Source: Pseudomonadota bacterium
GTDB lineage: Bacteria; Desulfobacterota; Syntrophorhabdia; Syntrophorhabdales; Syntrophorhabdaceae
Reading direction: 5' to 3'
Length of the DNA stretch: 34,555 nucleotides
NCBI GenBank assembly: GCA_026388275.1
Contig: JAPLKB010000013.1
Span: 1-34,555, forward strand
Position numbers and translations under genes: made by a program. The first letter of the stretch is position 1, and every line of letters starts with the position of its first letter. This document shows, one piece after another, positions 84 to 5,954 of the stretch. The notes under the pieces are model-generated. The model was not told the DNA's origin and made no database searches. It saw nothing but the letters and a program-made list of their open reading frames with translations.

Positions 84-2105
84 CTATATAAGATGAAGTG
101 CGTTTATGATAATGTCGACCAGTTTTATGCCTGGAAAAGGTGCTATGAGCCCGCCGAGACCGTAGATCAGAAGATTACGTTTTAAGAGCATGGCTGCTCC
201 CAGCGGGCGAAACCGTACGCCGCGCAAGGCAAGAGGAATAAGGGCGACAATGATCAACGCGTTAAAGATGACGGCGCTCAGTATTGCGCTGCTGGGGGAC
301 TTAAGCGCCATGATATTGAGCGGTGCAATGACAGGAAAAACAGTTACCAGCATAGCCGGGATGATGGCAAAATACTTGGCCACGTCATTGGCGATACTGA
401 AGGTTGTCAGGGCTCCACGGGTAATGAGCATCTGTTTGCCGATCTCCACGACCTCGATCAGCTTGGTGGGATTCGAATCAAGGTCCACCATGTTTCCTGC
501 TTCCTTGGCAGCCTGTGTTCCCGTATTCATGGCCATCCCCACATCTGCCTGGGCAAGGGCAGGGGCGTCATTCGTGCCGTCGCCGGTCATGGCGACAAGA
601 TGTCCTGCTGCCTGTTCCCTTCGAATTAATGCCAGTTTGTCTTCAGGCCTTGCTTCAGCAATAAAATCGTCCACGCCTGCTTCCTTTGCTATGGCAGCCG
701 CGGTAAGTTTGTTGTCGCCGGTAATCATCACTGTTTTTATTCCCATTGCTCTGAACCGTTCAAAACGATCTTTAAGTCCGCCTTTTACAATGTCTTTGAG
801 GTGTATAGCACCGAGGACCCTTTCCTTGTCGGCAACAAGTAAAGGAGTGCCTCCTGAGAGTGAGATAAAATCAACAGCATCCTGCACCTCTATTGGAACG
901 CTGCCTCCGACAAAAGACTGTATTGCATCAGCAGCGCCCTTTCGTATCTGCCTATCGTCGATATCTACCCCGCTCATCCTTGTCTGTGCTGAAAAAGAGA
1001 TGAATTTTGCATGGGGCATCTCGGAAATTGAGCGACCCCTGAGGCCATACTGTTTTGCAAGAACAACAATACTCCTGCCCTCGGGTGTTTCATCGGCCAG
1101 AGATGCGAGTTGTGCAATCTTTGCCAGTTCCTCTTTTGTAATTCCCGGTGCCGGCATAAAGTCTGTTGCCTGACGGTCTCCCAGGGTAATTGTTCCTGTT
1201 TTGTCGAGAAGCAGTACATCTACATCGCCTGCCGCTTCCACAGCTCGTCCGCTCATGGCAAGAACGTTTTTCTGCACCATCCGGTCAATACCTGCAATAC
1301 CGATGGCGCTTAATAGTCCGCCGATAGTGGTCGGAATCAAGCAGACCATTAGTGCCACAAGCACGGTGATGGAAAAGACGATGCCCGAATAGGAACCAAA
1401 GGGCTTCAAGGCCATAACGACAACGATGAAGATAATCGTCAGGGCCGAAAGGAGGATTGTCAGAGCGATTTCATTCGGTGTTTTCTGACGTTGTGCACCT
1501 TCCACAAGACTGATCATATGATCGAGAAAACTCTCGCCGGGATTGGCGGTGACGCGGACTTTGATCCGATCGGAGAGAACCCGTGTGCCGCCGGTAACTG
1601 CGCTCCTATCACCCCCTGACTCCCGTATGACAGGGGCGGATTCGCCTGTAATAGCAGATTCGTCTACAGTAGCAAAGCCTTCAATAATTTCGCCATCGGC
1701 AGGTATAACTTCTCCGGCGGACACGATAAAAAGGTCGTTCTTTCGTAATTGATCCGCCCCTAACGGTTGGGTTGAACCGTCGGCCTTGACAAGATTTGCC
1801 ATGGTTTGGGTGCGTGTCTTTCGCAGGGTATTGGCCTGGGCCTTGCCTCGTCCCTCAGCCATAGCTTCTGCAAAGTTAGCAAAGAGCACGGTAAACCAGA
1901 GCCAGAGCGTTACCTGAAGTACAAACGCAAAAGATTCACTGCCGGACCTGAAAAACAATGCCAGAGTAGTGAGGCCGGCCCCCACTTCAGTGACAAATAT
2001 GACGGGATTTTTTAGCAGCGACCGTGGATTTAGTTTTCTGAAGGCATCGGCAGATGCCTGAATAATAATCTCACGGTCAAAAAGAGAATGAGTTTTCAAA
2101 GCCAT
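84..2105 (-). CDS. kdpB: KdpB, P-type ATPase subunit of the KdpFABC K+ pump
   Basis: This is the 673-residue catalytic subunit of the inducible high-affinity K+ transporter in the inner membrane. Visible P-type ATPase signatures are the actuator motif TGES (near residue 154), the phosphorylation motif DKTGTIT (near 302), the TGDN nucleotide-domain motif and the hinge [11 protein letters not shown]. Several hydrophobic segments lie at the N-terminus, around residues 215-270 and near the C-terminus. Length and motif order are normal for KdpB. The ATG follows AAAGGAG at good spacing and sits 13 nt after the kdpA stop, so translation is probably coupled. A 327-codon open frame on the opposite strand inside this gene is only an antisense shadow. 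Confidence 0.98.
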
Positions 2106-2118
2106 AGTTTATACTCCT

Positions 2119-3921
2119 TTAGTATAAAACGGCAGTTTTCATCATGAGAAAATGCTCCACAATGGGACCGAGTGCAAGAGCCGGCAGGAATGTGAGGGCG
2201 CCCACTATGAGGACTGTTCCCACCAGAATTAGCGTAAACATAACTCCCCACACGGGGAAACTTCCTCCTGTTGAAGGGATCAGTTTCTTCCTTGCCATGC
2301 TTCCTGCCAGAGCCATAACAGGCACAATCATAAAAAAACGTCCAAAAAGCATGCCAAGGGCCAATGTCATGTTATACAATGGAGTATTGGCGTTCAAACC
2401 CGCGAAGGCGCTTCCGTTATTACCTGTGGCGGATGAATATGCATATAGTATCTCGGTCAGGCCGTGAGGTCCGCTGTTGTTCAAGCCTGCAAGGCCCCAT
2501 TTGCTGACTATTGCCCATGCAGAAAACCCGAGGATGCTGAAAATCAGTATGAGTAGTGCCAGGACAGAGACTTTCACGTCATAGGAGTCGATCTTCTTTC
2601 CCAAATATTCAGGAGTGCGTCCCACCATAAGACCTGTGAGAAATACGGCAAGCACCACAAAGACAAGCATTCCATAAAGTCCGGCGCCTACGCCGCCGAA
2701 GACCACCTCGCCCAGTTGAATGTTAAACAGCGGAACCAGGCCTCCGAGAGGCGTAAAAGAGTCGTGCATGGAGTTGACTGCACCGCAGGAGGCATCAGTA
2801 GTAACCACAGCAAAAAGGGCGGAATTGAAAATGCCGAAACGGATCTCCTTTCCCTCCATGTTTCCGCTTACAGGGTCTATCCCTAATGCATGGAGCCTCG
2901 GGTTGCCCGCACTTTCAGCAGACCAGCAGACCAGAACGGCAACAATGAAAAGTATTGCCATGGCGCTCCAGACTGTCCAGCCATGCTGCTGTTTTTTTAC
3001 CGTGCGTCCGAGATAATAGGTAAGGCCGCTGGGGATTAGAAAGATCGACAGCATCTGGAGGAAATTGGACAAAGGCGTCGGATTCTCATAAGGGTACGCT
3101 GCATTAGCATTGAAAAACCCGCCTCCATTCGTTCCGAGCATCTTGATCGCTACTTGAGAAGCAACAGGTCCCTGCGGAATGATCTGATCCCTGACTTCCT
3201 GAGTTTCCATTATTGCATTTCCCTTATTGTCCTTCATCTCGTTGCCTGCAACATCTTTTTTGGGTGTCTGGACAACGGCAGTTTCGATAAGACTCGTTTT
3301 TTCGTATGCCTTGAAGTTCTGGATCATACCCTGCGATATGAGGAAAACAGCAAAAATCAGGCAGATGGGCAAAAGCAGATAAAGGTTTATCCTGACCAGG
3401 TCAACCCAGAAATTGCCAATTGTTTTCATAGAATGGTGTGCAATGCCCCGCACAAGGGCTGCGGCCACAGCAATCCCCACGGCTGCCGAGGTAAAATTAT
3501 GGAAGGTAAGTCCCACCATTTGAGAAAAATAGGATAGGGTTGACTCGCCGGCGTAATTCTGCCAGTTTGTATTGGTGGTAAAACTGGCCGCCGTATTAAA
3601 GGCCAGATCAGGGCTGACAGATCCGAAACCCTGCGGATTAAGGGGCAGAATATGCTGGAGTCGGAGGATGGCATAAGTGAACAGGAATCCCGCAAGGCTG
3701 AAGGAGAGCATTGATACGGTATAACGCTTCCAGTCCTGTTCTTTGCCAGGGTCCACGCGGAACAGACGATAAAACAGACGTTCCACAGGCCGCAAAACAG
3801 GATCGAGGGAGGTCCTGCCCTCGGCATCGAGTACGCGGACGAGGTAGAGACCCATCGGTTTGGTAAGGGCAAGGAGCAGAACAATATAAAGTGTCAGTTG
3901 AATCCATCCGAAAATGTTCAT
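2119..3921 (-). CDS. kdpA: KdpA, K+-translocating subunit of the KdpFABC pump
   Basis: KdpA is the channel-like subunit that binds and moves K+, related to the Trk/Ktr superfamily. The 600-residue protein is strongly hydrophobic. It contains the selectivity-loop sequence TNGGGFFNANAAYPYENPTP (around residue 265) and further filter-like loops such as TNTNWQNY and ATGNNGSAF. A polar insert at about residues 205-255 (KTPKKDVAGNEMKDNKGN and following) makes it slightly longer than the approximately 560-residue E. coli form. The start ATG has GAGGGG upstream and lies 15 nt after kdpF. The order F-A-B-C is the standard one. Confidence 0.98.
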   Translation of the reverse strand: MNIFGWIQLTLYIVLLLALTKPMGLYLVRVLDAEGRTSLDPVLRPVERLFYRLFRVDPGKEQDWKRYTVSMLSFSLAGFLFTYAILRLQHILPLNPQGFGSVSPDLAFNTAASFTTNTNWQNYAGESTLSYFSQMVGLTFHNFTSAAVGIAVAAALVRGIAHHSMKTIGNFWVDLVRINLYLLLPICLIFAVFLISQGMIQNFKAYEKTSLIETAVVQTPKKDVAGNEMKDNKGNAIMETQEVRDQIIPQGPVASQVAIKMLGTNGGGFFNANAAYPYENPTPLSNFLQMLSIFLIPSGLTYYLGRTVKKQQHGWTVWSAMAILFIVAVLVCWSAESAGNPRLHALGIDPVSGNMEGKEIRFGIFNSALFAVVTTDASCGAVNSMHDSFTPLGGLVPLFNIQLGEVVFGGVGAGLYGMLVFVVLAVFLTGLMVGRTPEYLGKKIDSYDVKVSVLALLILIFSILGFSAWAIVSKWGLAGLNNSGPHGLTEILYAYSSATGNNGSAFAGLNANTPLYNMTLALGMLFGRFFMIVPVMALAGSMARKKLIPSTGGSFPVWGVMFTLILVGTVLIVGALTFLPALALGPIVEHFLMMKTAVLY

Positions 3922-3936
3922 TTATCTGTGTCCCCT

Positions 3937-4020
3937 CTAAAATTTCTCAGGTCGGAGGACTGTTGCAAGCAGGTATCCGATCAGGATAATTCCTATAAAA
4001 GCTCCGAATAAGTCAGCCAT
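3937..4020 (-). CDS. kdpF: KdpF, small membrane subunit of the K+ pump
   Basis: This 27-codon frame starts MADLFGAFIGIILIGYLLAT and ends VLRPEKF: one transmembrane helix with a short polar tail containing the R-P-E-K-F ending typical of KdpF. KdpF is the accessory single-span peptide that stabilises the KdpABC complex. It lies immediately before kdpA. Its ribosome site AGGAGG falls inside the last codons of the preceding microprotein, three nucleotides separating that stop from this start, so the two are likely translationally coupled. It is easily missed because of its size. Confidence 0.9.
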   Translation of the reverse strand: MADLFGAFIGIILIGYLLATVLRPEKF

Positions 4021-4023
4021 GTT

Positions 4024-4107
4024 TTAAAACCTCCTGCAGGCATCCGCGTATAGCGCGCATAGCCCGAAAAAAACAATTGCGATAAAGATGTAAACAAGAT
4101 CGATCAT
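4024..4107 (-). CDS. 27-residue membrane microprotein between sensor kinase and kdpF
   Basis: The frame begins MIDLVYIFIAIVFFGLCALY and ends ADACRRF. It is one transmembrane helix followed by a short Cys/Arg-rich tail, with a different sequence from KdpF. The ATG overlaps the sensor-kinase TGA (ATGA overlap) and the stop is 3 nt from the kdpF start, so it sits in a continuous translational chain. From memory, short peptides of the pattern M-(x)-D-(L/W)-(V/I)-Y-x(4)-(V/L)-FF-x-L-C precede kdpF in various bacteria; this was not checked by search. A role as a second small pump subunit, or as a link between sensor and pump, is inference from position only. Confidence 0.7.
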   Translation of the reverse strand: MIDLVYIFIAIVFFGLCALYADACRRF

Positions 4108-5954
4108 GAATGATGCTCCTTTTTAGAGATTTGGTCTGTTCTTTTAAGTGTAAAAGTAAAGGTGCTGCCTTTCCCCTCGTGGCTCTCTGCGCGTATTGTC
4201 CCGCCGTGTGCTTCCACGATCTCCTTTACAATGGCAAGACCGAGTCCTGCACCGGTCTCCTTTTTTTGTTTCGGAACACGGAAGAATTGTTCGAAGAGTC
4301 TGTCAAGATATTCTGCAGGAATGCCCCTGCCGGTATCGGAAACTTTGAAAAAGACCCATCGGTTATCTGCAGAGGCGGAAACGGTAATTATTCCGCCCGG
4401 ATTAGTATACCGCAGCGCGTTTCCAAGGAGGTTGGAAAAGACCTGGTTTATCTGCATAGGATCTGCCCAAACTTCAGGCAGGTCATGGGAAAGTTCTGTC
4501 CGAAGCTCTATCCCTCTGTCATGTGCCGACAGCGTATAGATATCGACAGCATCAAGGACAATTGTATTGGGAGAGATTGTCTGAAAATGCATAGTGACCT
4601 TTCCCGATTCCATCCGGCTGATATCGAGGAGACTGCTGAGTATGTCATTAAGTCTGTCGCTGTCTTCTCTTGCCACGAGTAAGAGTTCAACCTGTTTATC
4701 GGTGAGATGCCCCGGGCTTTCATTCTCTTCGAGCAGCAGATGGATCGCCATGCGAATGGATGTGAGTGGTGTCTTCAACTGATGCGATACCGTTGATATG
4801 ATTCCTTTTTTCAACTCGTCCTGTTGCCTCAACTGTGTAACATCTTTGAGCGCCAGCATAACGCCGGTGGGTTGCCCTTTAGCATCTTTGATAGGTATTG
4901 CTTCAGGCCGAAAGAAACGTTCTTCCCCTTTTACAAATTGCTGAATTATCGTTTTTCCGTTTTCCGGAACTGTAATATGCCCACTTTTCAGGGCGCCCTT
5001 GAAAATATCTAAAATAAGAGGAAACTGAATGTCCTGCATCCTGATATCCGGTTTTAATCCGAATATGTCTCTTGCCGATGCTGTTGCCAATTCTATTCGG
5101 CCATCGAAATCTATAACAGCAATGGCATCAGGAAGACTGTTAAATGCCTGCTGTGTGGCCTGTTGTATCCTCACGAGTCTGGCCTGGTCTGAGCGGCGGA
5201 ATTCACGTAGGTTTGCAGTCATTGCATTGAAAGACTCGGAAAGGTAGCCTATTTCATCATGTGAGCTGCTTTGCACAATAAGATCAAGATTCCCCCGTCC
5301 GATCTCATTGGTGGATTTTATAAGACGGTTAATGGGACGGAGAATCCATCGGCCGGTGAAGTACACGAATCCTGATGCTGTGATAATGCCTACGAAGAGG
5401 AGAATATACATTTGCCTTCGTGCATTTGCCGCATCTTTACGGGCATGGTTGTTGGCATCGCTCATGTTCTGCTGATTCATATGAAGAATTTCATCGGCTT
5501 TATCCTTAATCTGCTGGAACGCGGGAAGAAGATCCCTGAAGTAAACATTACGCCTGAAAACCGGCGGCGTGCTTCTGTCCTCAATGCTCTCAAGGCCTTT
5601 TTTATACTGCTTGAAAATCTCCTGGAGAAGGGCTGCCTTTTCATCTTCTCCGGGTACGGTGATATTATTTAATTCAGTCTGAAGCGCCTTCTCAAAGACA
5701 ATCAAATTTTTACTGATAAGCTCTTTGCCTTTTTCCGTATCTCCCAGCAACGTAAAGAGAATCCCACTGTCGATCCGTTCCAGGGCCTCCTTCATTTCCT
5801 GACATGCAATGACGCTACGGTAGTTTTCCCGCAATATTACATCAATAGACTCTCCCAATCGGGAAAGGTGCAGGATGCCCTGAATCCCGATCACCATCAT
5901 GATGAGTAAGAGACCACCGAACCCAAGAGAAAGCTTCTGACGAATTCCCATCAT
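4104..5954 (-). CDS. Membrane sensor histidine kinase (HAMP-PAS-HisKA-HATPase), probable regulator of kdp
   Basis: The 616-residue protein has an N-terminal helix (about 8-28), a predicted helical periplasmic region (30-180), a second membrane helix (182-202), and HAMP (about 200-255). A PAS domain follows (about 265-375), then the dimerisation/phosphoacceptor domain with VSHQLKTPLTS (His391), and a HATPase domain with N-box NALRYTNPGG (about 511), DTGRGIP (about 540) and GAGLGLAI (about 568). It lacks the KdpD and Usp domains of the classical kdp sensor and looks more like KinB/NtrY-type kinases. The first of two adjacent ATG codons is used, with GGAGG 7 nt upstream. It is the first gene of the kdp transcript and overlaps the microprotein by 4 nt. 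K+ or osmotic sensing is inferred from context. Confidence 0.92.
   Translation of the reverse strand: MMGIRQKLSLGFGGLLLIMMVIGIQGILHLSRLGESIDVILRENYRSVIACQEMKEALERIDSGILFTLLGDTEKGKELISKNLIVFEKALQTELNNITVPGEDEKAALLQEIFKQYKKGLESIEDRSTPPVFRRNVYFRDLLPAFQQIKDKADEILHMNQQNMSDANNHARKDAANARRQMYILLFVGIITASGFVYFTGRWILRPINRLIKSTNEIGRGNLDLIVQSSSHDEIGYLSESFNAMTANLREFRRSDQARLVRIQQATQQAFNSLPDAIAVIDFDGRIELATASARDIFGLKPDIRMQDIQFPLILDIFKGALKSGHITVPENGKTIIQQFVKGEERFFRPEAIPIKDAKGQPTGVMLALKDVTQLRQQDELKKGIISTVSHQLKTPLTSIRMAIHLLLEENESPGHLTDKQVELLLVAREDSDRLNDILSSLLDISRMESGKVTMHFQTISPNTIVLDAVDIYTLSAHDRGIELRTELSHDLPEVWADPMQINQVFSNLLGNALRYTNPGGIITVSASADNRWVFFKVSDTGRGIPAEYLDRLFEQFFRVPKQKKETGAGLGLAIVKEIVEAHGGTIRAESHEGKGSTFTFTLKRTDQISKKEHHS

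Follow-up and report, generated by a model that had tools for sequence, protein, structure and literature searches.

A frame of 27 codons lies between a sensor kinase gene and kdpF at the head of a kdp operon, and the locus raises the question of whether this frame is a gene and, if it is, whether it belongs to the potassium pump or to the kinase. Passages of the structural papers on Kdp describe the pump as a heterotetramer, with KdpF as a stabiliser (PMC8385062, PMC9651954, PMC12629597).

The small frame and its operon

In the window, that is, the whole stretch of 34,555 nucleotides that was analysed, the genes run on the minus strand in the order sensor kinase, 27-codon frame, kdpF, kdpA and kdpB, and all the features given here lie on that strand. 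The small frame, which is unannotated, occupies positions 4024..4107; it starts with ATG and encodes 27 residues, MIDLVYIFIAIVFFGLCALYADACRRF, predicted to form one hydrophobic helix with the N-terminus outside and the C-terminus inside. A Shine-Dalgarno sequence, AGGAG (4116..4120), precedes the ATG with an 8-nt spacer, and the start codon shares the tetranucleotide ATGA (4104..4107) with the TGA stop of the kinase gene, as the original prediction had described. The 3' end of the frame reads TGC AGG AGG TTT TAA. Here codons 25-26, the 'RR' of the CRRF tail, are at the same time the Shine-Dalgarno sequence of kdpF (AGGAGG, 4030..4035, 9-nt spacer to the kdpF ATG), which bears out the further claim that the kdpF ribosome site lies within the last codons of the small frame.

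As for the neighbouring genes, kdpF (3937..4020, 27 aa) is recognised by Pfam PF09604 with E 4e-06 and 27 bits (cut-off 21.2); against NCBIfam TIGR02115 it reaches 22.7 bits with a cut-off of 26.85, so that this model alone would also miss the kdpF of the window. It is followed by kdpA (2119..3921, 600 aa; PF03814, E 1.3e-233) and by kdpB (84..2105), the P-type ATPase subunit, with E1-E2_ATPase and Hydrolase domains (Pfam); since the contig starts just beyond the end of kdpB, kdpC is not visible in the window. The sensor histidine kinase (4104..5954) is of the 4HB_MCP-HAMP-PAS-HisKA-HATPase type (Pfam), and the KdpD sensor domain is absent among its Pfam matches, so that the cue of this operon may differ from that of E. 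coli.

Distribution of the family and selection on the frame

A tblastn search of plasmids with the peptide, at loose E-values, returned 13 records, and each of the four examined proved to be a kdp locus in which a similar ORF precedes kdpF or kdpA. A second match in the source genome (G000:C60, 39% identity, E 0.21) was rejected, as no family-like ORF is listed there. The discovery set of KdpA loci was drawn from 80 genome-contig loci, from plasmid and E. coli records and from further genomes; its 237 loci gave 225 KdpA starts and 206 distinct loci. By iterated profile, kdpF was found in 161 loci (at least 8 bits), 160 of them with an extractable ORF, and the peptide profile reached at least 10 bits in 130 of these 160 loci and in 3 of the 46 loci lacking kdpF, fractions that are biased upward because the 80 contig loci are those most similar to the query KdpA. 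The same threshold was reached by 1 of 2,040 shuffled upstream regions and by none of the 2,644 other windows taken from these loci. Since the profile had been trained on the discovery loci, it was frozen and then applied to a test set of 126 new loci, from the phyla Myxococcota, Chloroflexota and Cyanobacteriota and from Actinomycetota and Bacillota plasmids; here the peptide was found in 90 of the 113 loci with kdpF and in 0 of the 13 without it.

The carriers include Acidobacteriota, Verrucomicrobiota, Aminicenantes, alpha-, beta- and gamma-proteobacteria, Bacteroidota, Gemmatimonadota, Myxococcota, Chloroflexota, Melainabacteria, Deinococcota, Actinomycetota and Bacillota. A Shine-Dalgarno match of at least 4 nt precedes 82 of 132 family starts, compared with 60 of 660 random positions, and the gene overlaps kdpF by 4 nt in 29 of the 130 strong cases. 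No peptide gene was found upstream of kdpF in E. coli K-12, in Duffyella and Proteus (Enterobacterales), and in Halobacterium, Lactiplantibacillus and Staphylococcus loci, so that the peptide is not essential to every Kdp pump. Absence of the frame with kdpF kept, which the original prediction had regarded as evidence against a gene, does therefore occur, but in a minority, namely 21 of the 157 kdpF-bearing loci of the discovery KdpA alignment, after divergent copies had been added by eye. Neither kdpF nor the peptide gene was found directly upstream of kdpA in 43 of the 206 discovery loci, at least one of which (L056) is cut by the contig end; examples of loci with neither gene are L017, L018, L020, L028 and many from the Cyanobacteriota-phylum search.

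The pooled in-frame pN/pS was 0.38 in Bradyrhizobium, 0.40 in Methylobacterium, 0.41 in Acidobacteriota, 0.55 in Verrucomicrobiota and 0.50 in a group of Aminicenantes and members of the window's own phylum. The other two forward frames gave 0.97-1.68; among the reverse frames one gave 0.53-0.74, in every group above the value of the coding frame, and the other two 0.97-1.80. With columns permuted the mean lay at 0.91-1.01, and in none of the five clades did any of 500 permutations come down to the observed value. The frame is thus under purifying selection in all five, as the proposed check on synonymous substitutions had anticipated, and a chance ORF is rejected by this selection together with the null counts of the profile, in agreement with the early judgement that the placement was unlikely to be due to chance. 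Between the window and the sole same-genus genome among the matches listed (89% identical) there are 4 synonymous and 3 amino-acid differences. Judged from these sequence comparisons, the small frame is a real and widespread member of an unnamed gene family, and its peptide is very probably translated.

Among the 73 members of exactly 27 residues, D3 is present in 69, F14 in 70, Y/F20 in 67, C24 in 59 and R/K26 in 63. The tail consensus of the family is C-[ED]-[RK]-[LI]; the single hydrophobic helix of the original prediction stands, and the CRRF tail is present in the window but is atypical of the family. Lys and Arg are more numerous after residue 20 than in residues 2-6 in 124 of 129 members, equal in 5 and fewer in 0, a bias that, by the positive-inside rule, would place the N-terminus of the peptide outside.

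The family adds to annotation a group that no Pfam or NCBIfam model recognises. For the window peptide Pfam returned 0 families, the only NCBIfam row had E 0.15, far under the cut-off, and the best match in a PDB search had E 5. When 103 members were compared with Pfam, 14 families, none of them KdpF, were touched by 1-3 members each (E up to 0.1). Matches to BcsF (3/103 in Pfam, best E 0.0024; 3/103 in NCBIfam, best 0.0074) were taken as generic one-helix similarity and rejected. Some copies are already in databases under other descriptions: WP_191287747.1 of Mycetohabitans, a family member by profile, is annotated before kdpF in RefSeq as 'potassium ABC transporter ATPase', a name unfit for a single helix of 34 residues, and an Arthrobacter copy lies inside an overlong 'hypothetical protein' annotation.

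Covariation of the peptide acid with residue 87 of KdpA

When KdpA sequences from loci with and without the peptide were compared, window residue 87 (codon 3661..3663), which is Leu in E. coli, stood out. In the discovery set, a peptide with an acid near its N-terminus (Asp3 in the window, codon 4099..4101) is accompanied by Arg87 in 121 of the 121 loci having a residue there; Arg87 is found in 0 of 15 loci in which the peptide lacks the acid and in 3 of 62 loci without the peptide. Left out of these counts were L056, L016 and L214, in which the peptide is cut or unobservable at contig ends; L026 is gapped at residue 87, and L155, L230 and L233, with Asp at ORF residue 2 or 3, were counted as acid-bearing; the uncorrected first count had been 120/120 with the acid and 2/17 without it, again for loci with a residue there.

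In a scan of 1,342 KdpA, 72 KdpF and 953 KdpB column-residue tests, Arg87 ranks first over all tests with phi 0.958, followed by KdpA Tyr83 (codon 3673..3675), one turn earlier, with 0.820 over all loci; the best values elsewhere are 0.66 in KdpB and 0.53 in KdpF. Within the peptide-bearing loci alone, residue 87 is again first (phi 0.964) and the next value is 0.843, at KdpA position 142.

The same pattern was observed in the new loci, where Arg87 is present in 89 of 89 strong acid-bearing matches and in 3 of 3 weak ones; L318, a strong match scored as 'no acid' with Arg87, has its N-terminus cut by the contig end. Among new loci without a peptide match, Arg87 is found in 10 of 18 with kdpF only and in 1 of 13 with neither gene. 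For some of the Arg87 loci a peptide is nevertheless at hand: L250 and L354 have divergent acid-bearing copies, recognised by eye, in L280 the peptide is displaced by about 0.9 kb upstream, and L177 (discovery) and L364, both with neither gene upstream, have a second, peptide-bearing kdpA close by. No peptide was found in the Arg87 loci L225 and L148 of the discovery set, nor in L256, L257, L270, L271, L283, L317, L331, L332 and L338 of the test set, these nine all from the Myxococcota-phylum search; weak profile matches in L257 and L283 are KdpA's own first helix and are false. Thus the acid implies Arg87, but Arg87 does not imply the peptide, and this one-way pattern would fit a membrane salt bridge, provided that an unpaired Asp carries a cost and an unpaired Arg does not matter much. 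Paired kdpA genes were also seen in L386 and L384, with two KdpA matches each at a distance of about 3-5 kb; one copy has kdpF and the peptide gene, and upstream of the other neither was found.

It could be argued that Arg87 and the acid are just markers of a single old lineage of KdpA in which the peptide is usually retained, with no direct contact between them. Changes of either trait on the tree are rare (11 and 10), Arg87 persists in the 11 loci just listed, and the values of up to phi 0.843 reached by other KdpA columns within peptide-bearing loci are what shared ancestry would give. However, residue 87 tops the scan both over all loci and within the peptide-bearing ones, and a FastTree phylogeny of KdpA, from which columns 80-110 had been removed, yielded 9 independent pairs of loci differing in the acid, in which Arg differs in the same way in 7, in the opposite way in 0 and does not differ in 2 (p 0.016). 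Among the peptide-bearing loci alone, all four independent acid losses match, too few for significance. The paired and displaced copies (L177, L364 and L280) also account for some of the Arg87 loci that seem to lack a peptide. We therefore regard common descent without contact as an unlikely explanation of the covariation, which, as read from the aligned sequences, is a new finding.

Proposed role of the peptide

We consider it likely that the peptide is a fifth, accessory subunit of KdpFABC, with its helix oriented N-out and held to KdpA through a salt bridge between Asp3 and Arg87. In the AlphaFold2 model of the window KdpA (mean pLDDT 77.1, pTM 0.81), the helix 64-87 ends at residue 87, and a short helix, 104-115 (pore helix 1), precedes TNTN; P104 and F108, which also discriminate KdpA sequences by the peptide, are in the first turns of this pore helix. 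In potassium channels the end of the helix preceding the pore loop is outside, and with this standard topology the end of KdpA TM2 would be on the same side as the predicted N-terminus of the peptide. Translation, insertion into the membrane, physical contact and function are steps that we infer; gene, conservation, selection, linkage and covariation are read from the sequences themselves. The peptide would be produced at the start of the kdp operon, its gene in some cases overlapping kdpF by 4 nt, and would insert so that the acidic N-terminus is outside and the basic C-terminus inside. Its helix could then pack against TM2 of KdpA at the outer end, next to pore helix 1 of the selectivity filter, with Asp3 bridged to Arg87, and might stabilise KdpA or tune potassium entry, as KdpF stabilises the complex.

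The genomic linkage points in the same direction. A profile scan of 247 genomes of one phylum gave 15 matches, 12 of which adjoin kdpA and 3 lie inside unrelated frames of 345-498 codons, so that no genuine case of the peptide away from KdpA was met in these genomes. In L181 and L182, where kdpF is relocated ahead of kdpB, the peptide gene remains before kdpA, and in L147 it overlaps kdpA, with no kdpF above the cut-off in the genome. By these associations the gene belongs to the pump rather than to the kinase. Between the two roles offered by the original prediction, the overlooked pump subunit is the reading best supported, through linkage to kdpA, purifying selection and the covariation of D3 with R87.

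The frame might instead be translated only so that ribosomes reach kdpF/kdpA or translation is sensed, and the peptide itself would remain unused. Such a leader or coupling peptide would agree with a gene that overlaps or nearly abuts kdpF and, in the window, holds the kdpF ribosome site in its last codons, and stretches of about 100-120 nt before kdpF have indeed been described as 5' UTRs: the transcript of M. smegmatis starts 120 nt before kdpF, and because an upstream TTG annotated as a start was negative in a reporter test, these nucleotides were interpreted as a long 5' UTR (PMC5401905); Caulobacter is described as having a leader of about 100 nt before kdpF (PMC8552747). By their length alone, these '5' UTRs' may hold the peptide gene, and the TTG of M. 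smegmatis is not necessarily its start. Against an unused product, residues such as D3 and F14 are conserved across phyla, the frame is under purifying selection and thus not free to vary outside the control codons, and the acid covaries with a residue of KdpA whose codon lies about 440 nt downstream on the mRNA. The gene is also kept in the three loci with kdpF elsewhere or not found. That the tail is conserved merely as the ribosome site of kdpF was rejected in part, since the codons at position 26 are mixed (AGG 16, CGG 14, AAA 11, CGC 9, AAG 7) and the tail is mostly kept even with kdpF at least 18 nt away. We thus give a leader function a small probability.

Another origin would be a duplication of KdpF, the peptide sharing its binding place and role. 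The peptide resembles KdpF (PF09604, TIGR02115) in its size of about 27-29 aa, in its one hydrophobic helix, in the shared operon and neighbouring gene and in being translated just before kdpA; 1 of the 103 members touches the NCBIfam KdpF model at E 0.0086, and hhalign of the peptide and KdpF profiles gives an alignment over 10 columns (single-comparison E 0.0015). The probability of this alignment is, however, 16%, and homology is not convincing. The pattern D3...FF...Y..xC[ED][RK][LI] of the peptide differs from ...YL..ALxRPE[KR]F of KdpF, whose C-terminal Pro-Glu-Lys/Arg-Phe is lacking in the family consensus, the peptide gene sits before kdpF and is absent from E. coli, the 130 of 160 kdpF-bearing loci that carry both argue against mutual replacement, and the covarying partner is in KdpA TM2. 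KdpF paralogy is therefore not supported, and a duplicate with the place and role of KdpF is very improbable.

The other role offered by the original prediction, a coupler relaying the state of the pump to the sensor kinase encoded just upstream, found no support and is highly unlikely: the ATGA-type 4-nt overlap with a kinase-like ORF is shared by the window and relatives such as L004, L005, L034 and L038, and the abstract of a KdpF paper (PMC3618439) speaks of interactions between membrane peptides and sensor kinases, but a kinase-like ORF (called by eye from C-terminal motifs) is directly upstream in just 15 of the 128 loci with enough upstream sequence, 81 of them have no ORF of at least 100 codons ending there, the gene stays with kdpA when kdpF is moved or not found, and the covarying partner lies in KdpA, in a scan that covered KdpA, KdpF and KdpB.

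If the peptide is a subunit, the textbook pump of four subunits would not be the commonest form among the kdpF-bearing operons sampled, in what is a biased sample. Among PDB chains, those matching KdpA at E up to 1e-20 comprise three sequences, all as long as E. coli KdpA (557 residues), and in E. coli K-12 no peptide gene precedes kdpF; the peptide would then be an extra subunit absent from the solved structures. Questions about the role of KdpF and of other small helices would gain a partner with a precise and mutable predicted contact, D3-R87. In a bolder version, which we put forward tentatively and hold to be somewhat less probable than its contrary, the usual bacterial Kdp pump would have at least five subunits and the KdpFABC of E. 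coli would be a reduced form; the missing helix would clamp the outer end of KdpA TM2 to pore helix 1 by the Asp-Arg bridge, so setting how tightly or how selectively potassium is bound where it enters the filter, and some lineages (Bradyrhizobium, Acidithiobacillus) would add another small helix.

One-helix peptides on large membrane machines have precedents in AcrZ and CydX, small accessory helices of transporters and oxidases, which differ from the present peptide in their partner. In Clostridium acetobutylicum, two small genes, orfZ and orfY, were reportedly found ahead of kdpA (Treuner-Lange 1997) and are not known to have been followed up as a conserved subunit. The likeness to the peptide gene and kdpF of the window is one of gene order, and orfZ/orfY are probably an earlier sighting of this pair. 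The accessible passages of the literature searched held no second small kdp peptide, the nearest case being the C. acetobutylicum transcript, written kdpZYABCXDE (PMC5401905).

Other short hydrophobic frames were seen in kdp operons. In L169-L174, from the Bacteroidota-phylum search, a different one, e.g. MDVYYYLFRGILIFLILAGFAALSG..., which the family profile misses, lies directly before kdpF. A further small hydrophobic ORF of 34-46 aa is found between kdpF and kdpA in Bradyrhizobium loci (L067, L069, L073, L076, L078, L087, L088, L101 and L109), where it ends about 5 nt before kdpA, and in an Acidithiobacillus plasmid (L127:1339-1479), where it is annotated as the hypothetical protein UBU64037.1.
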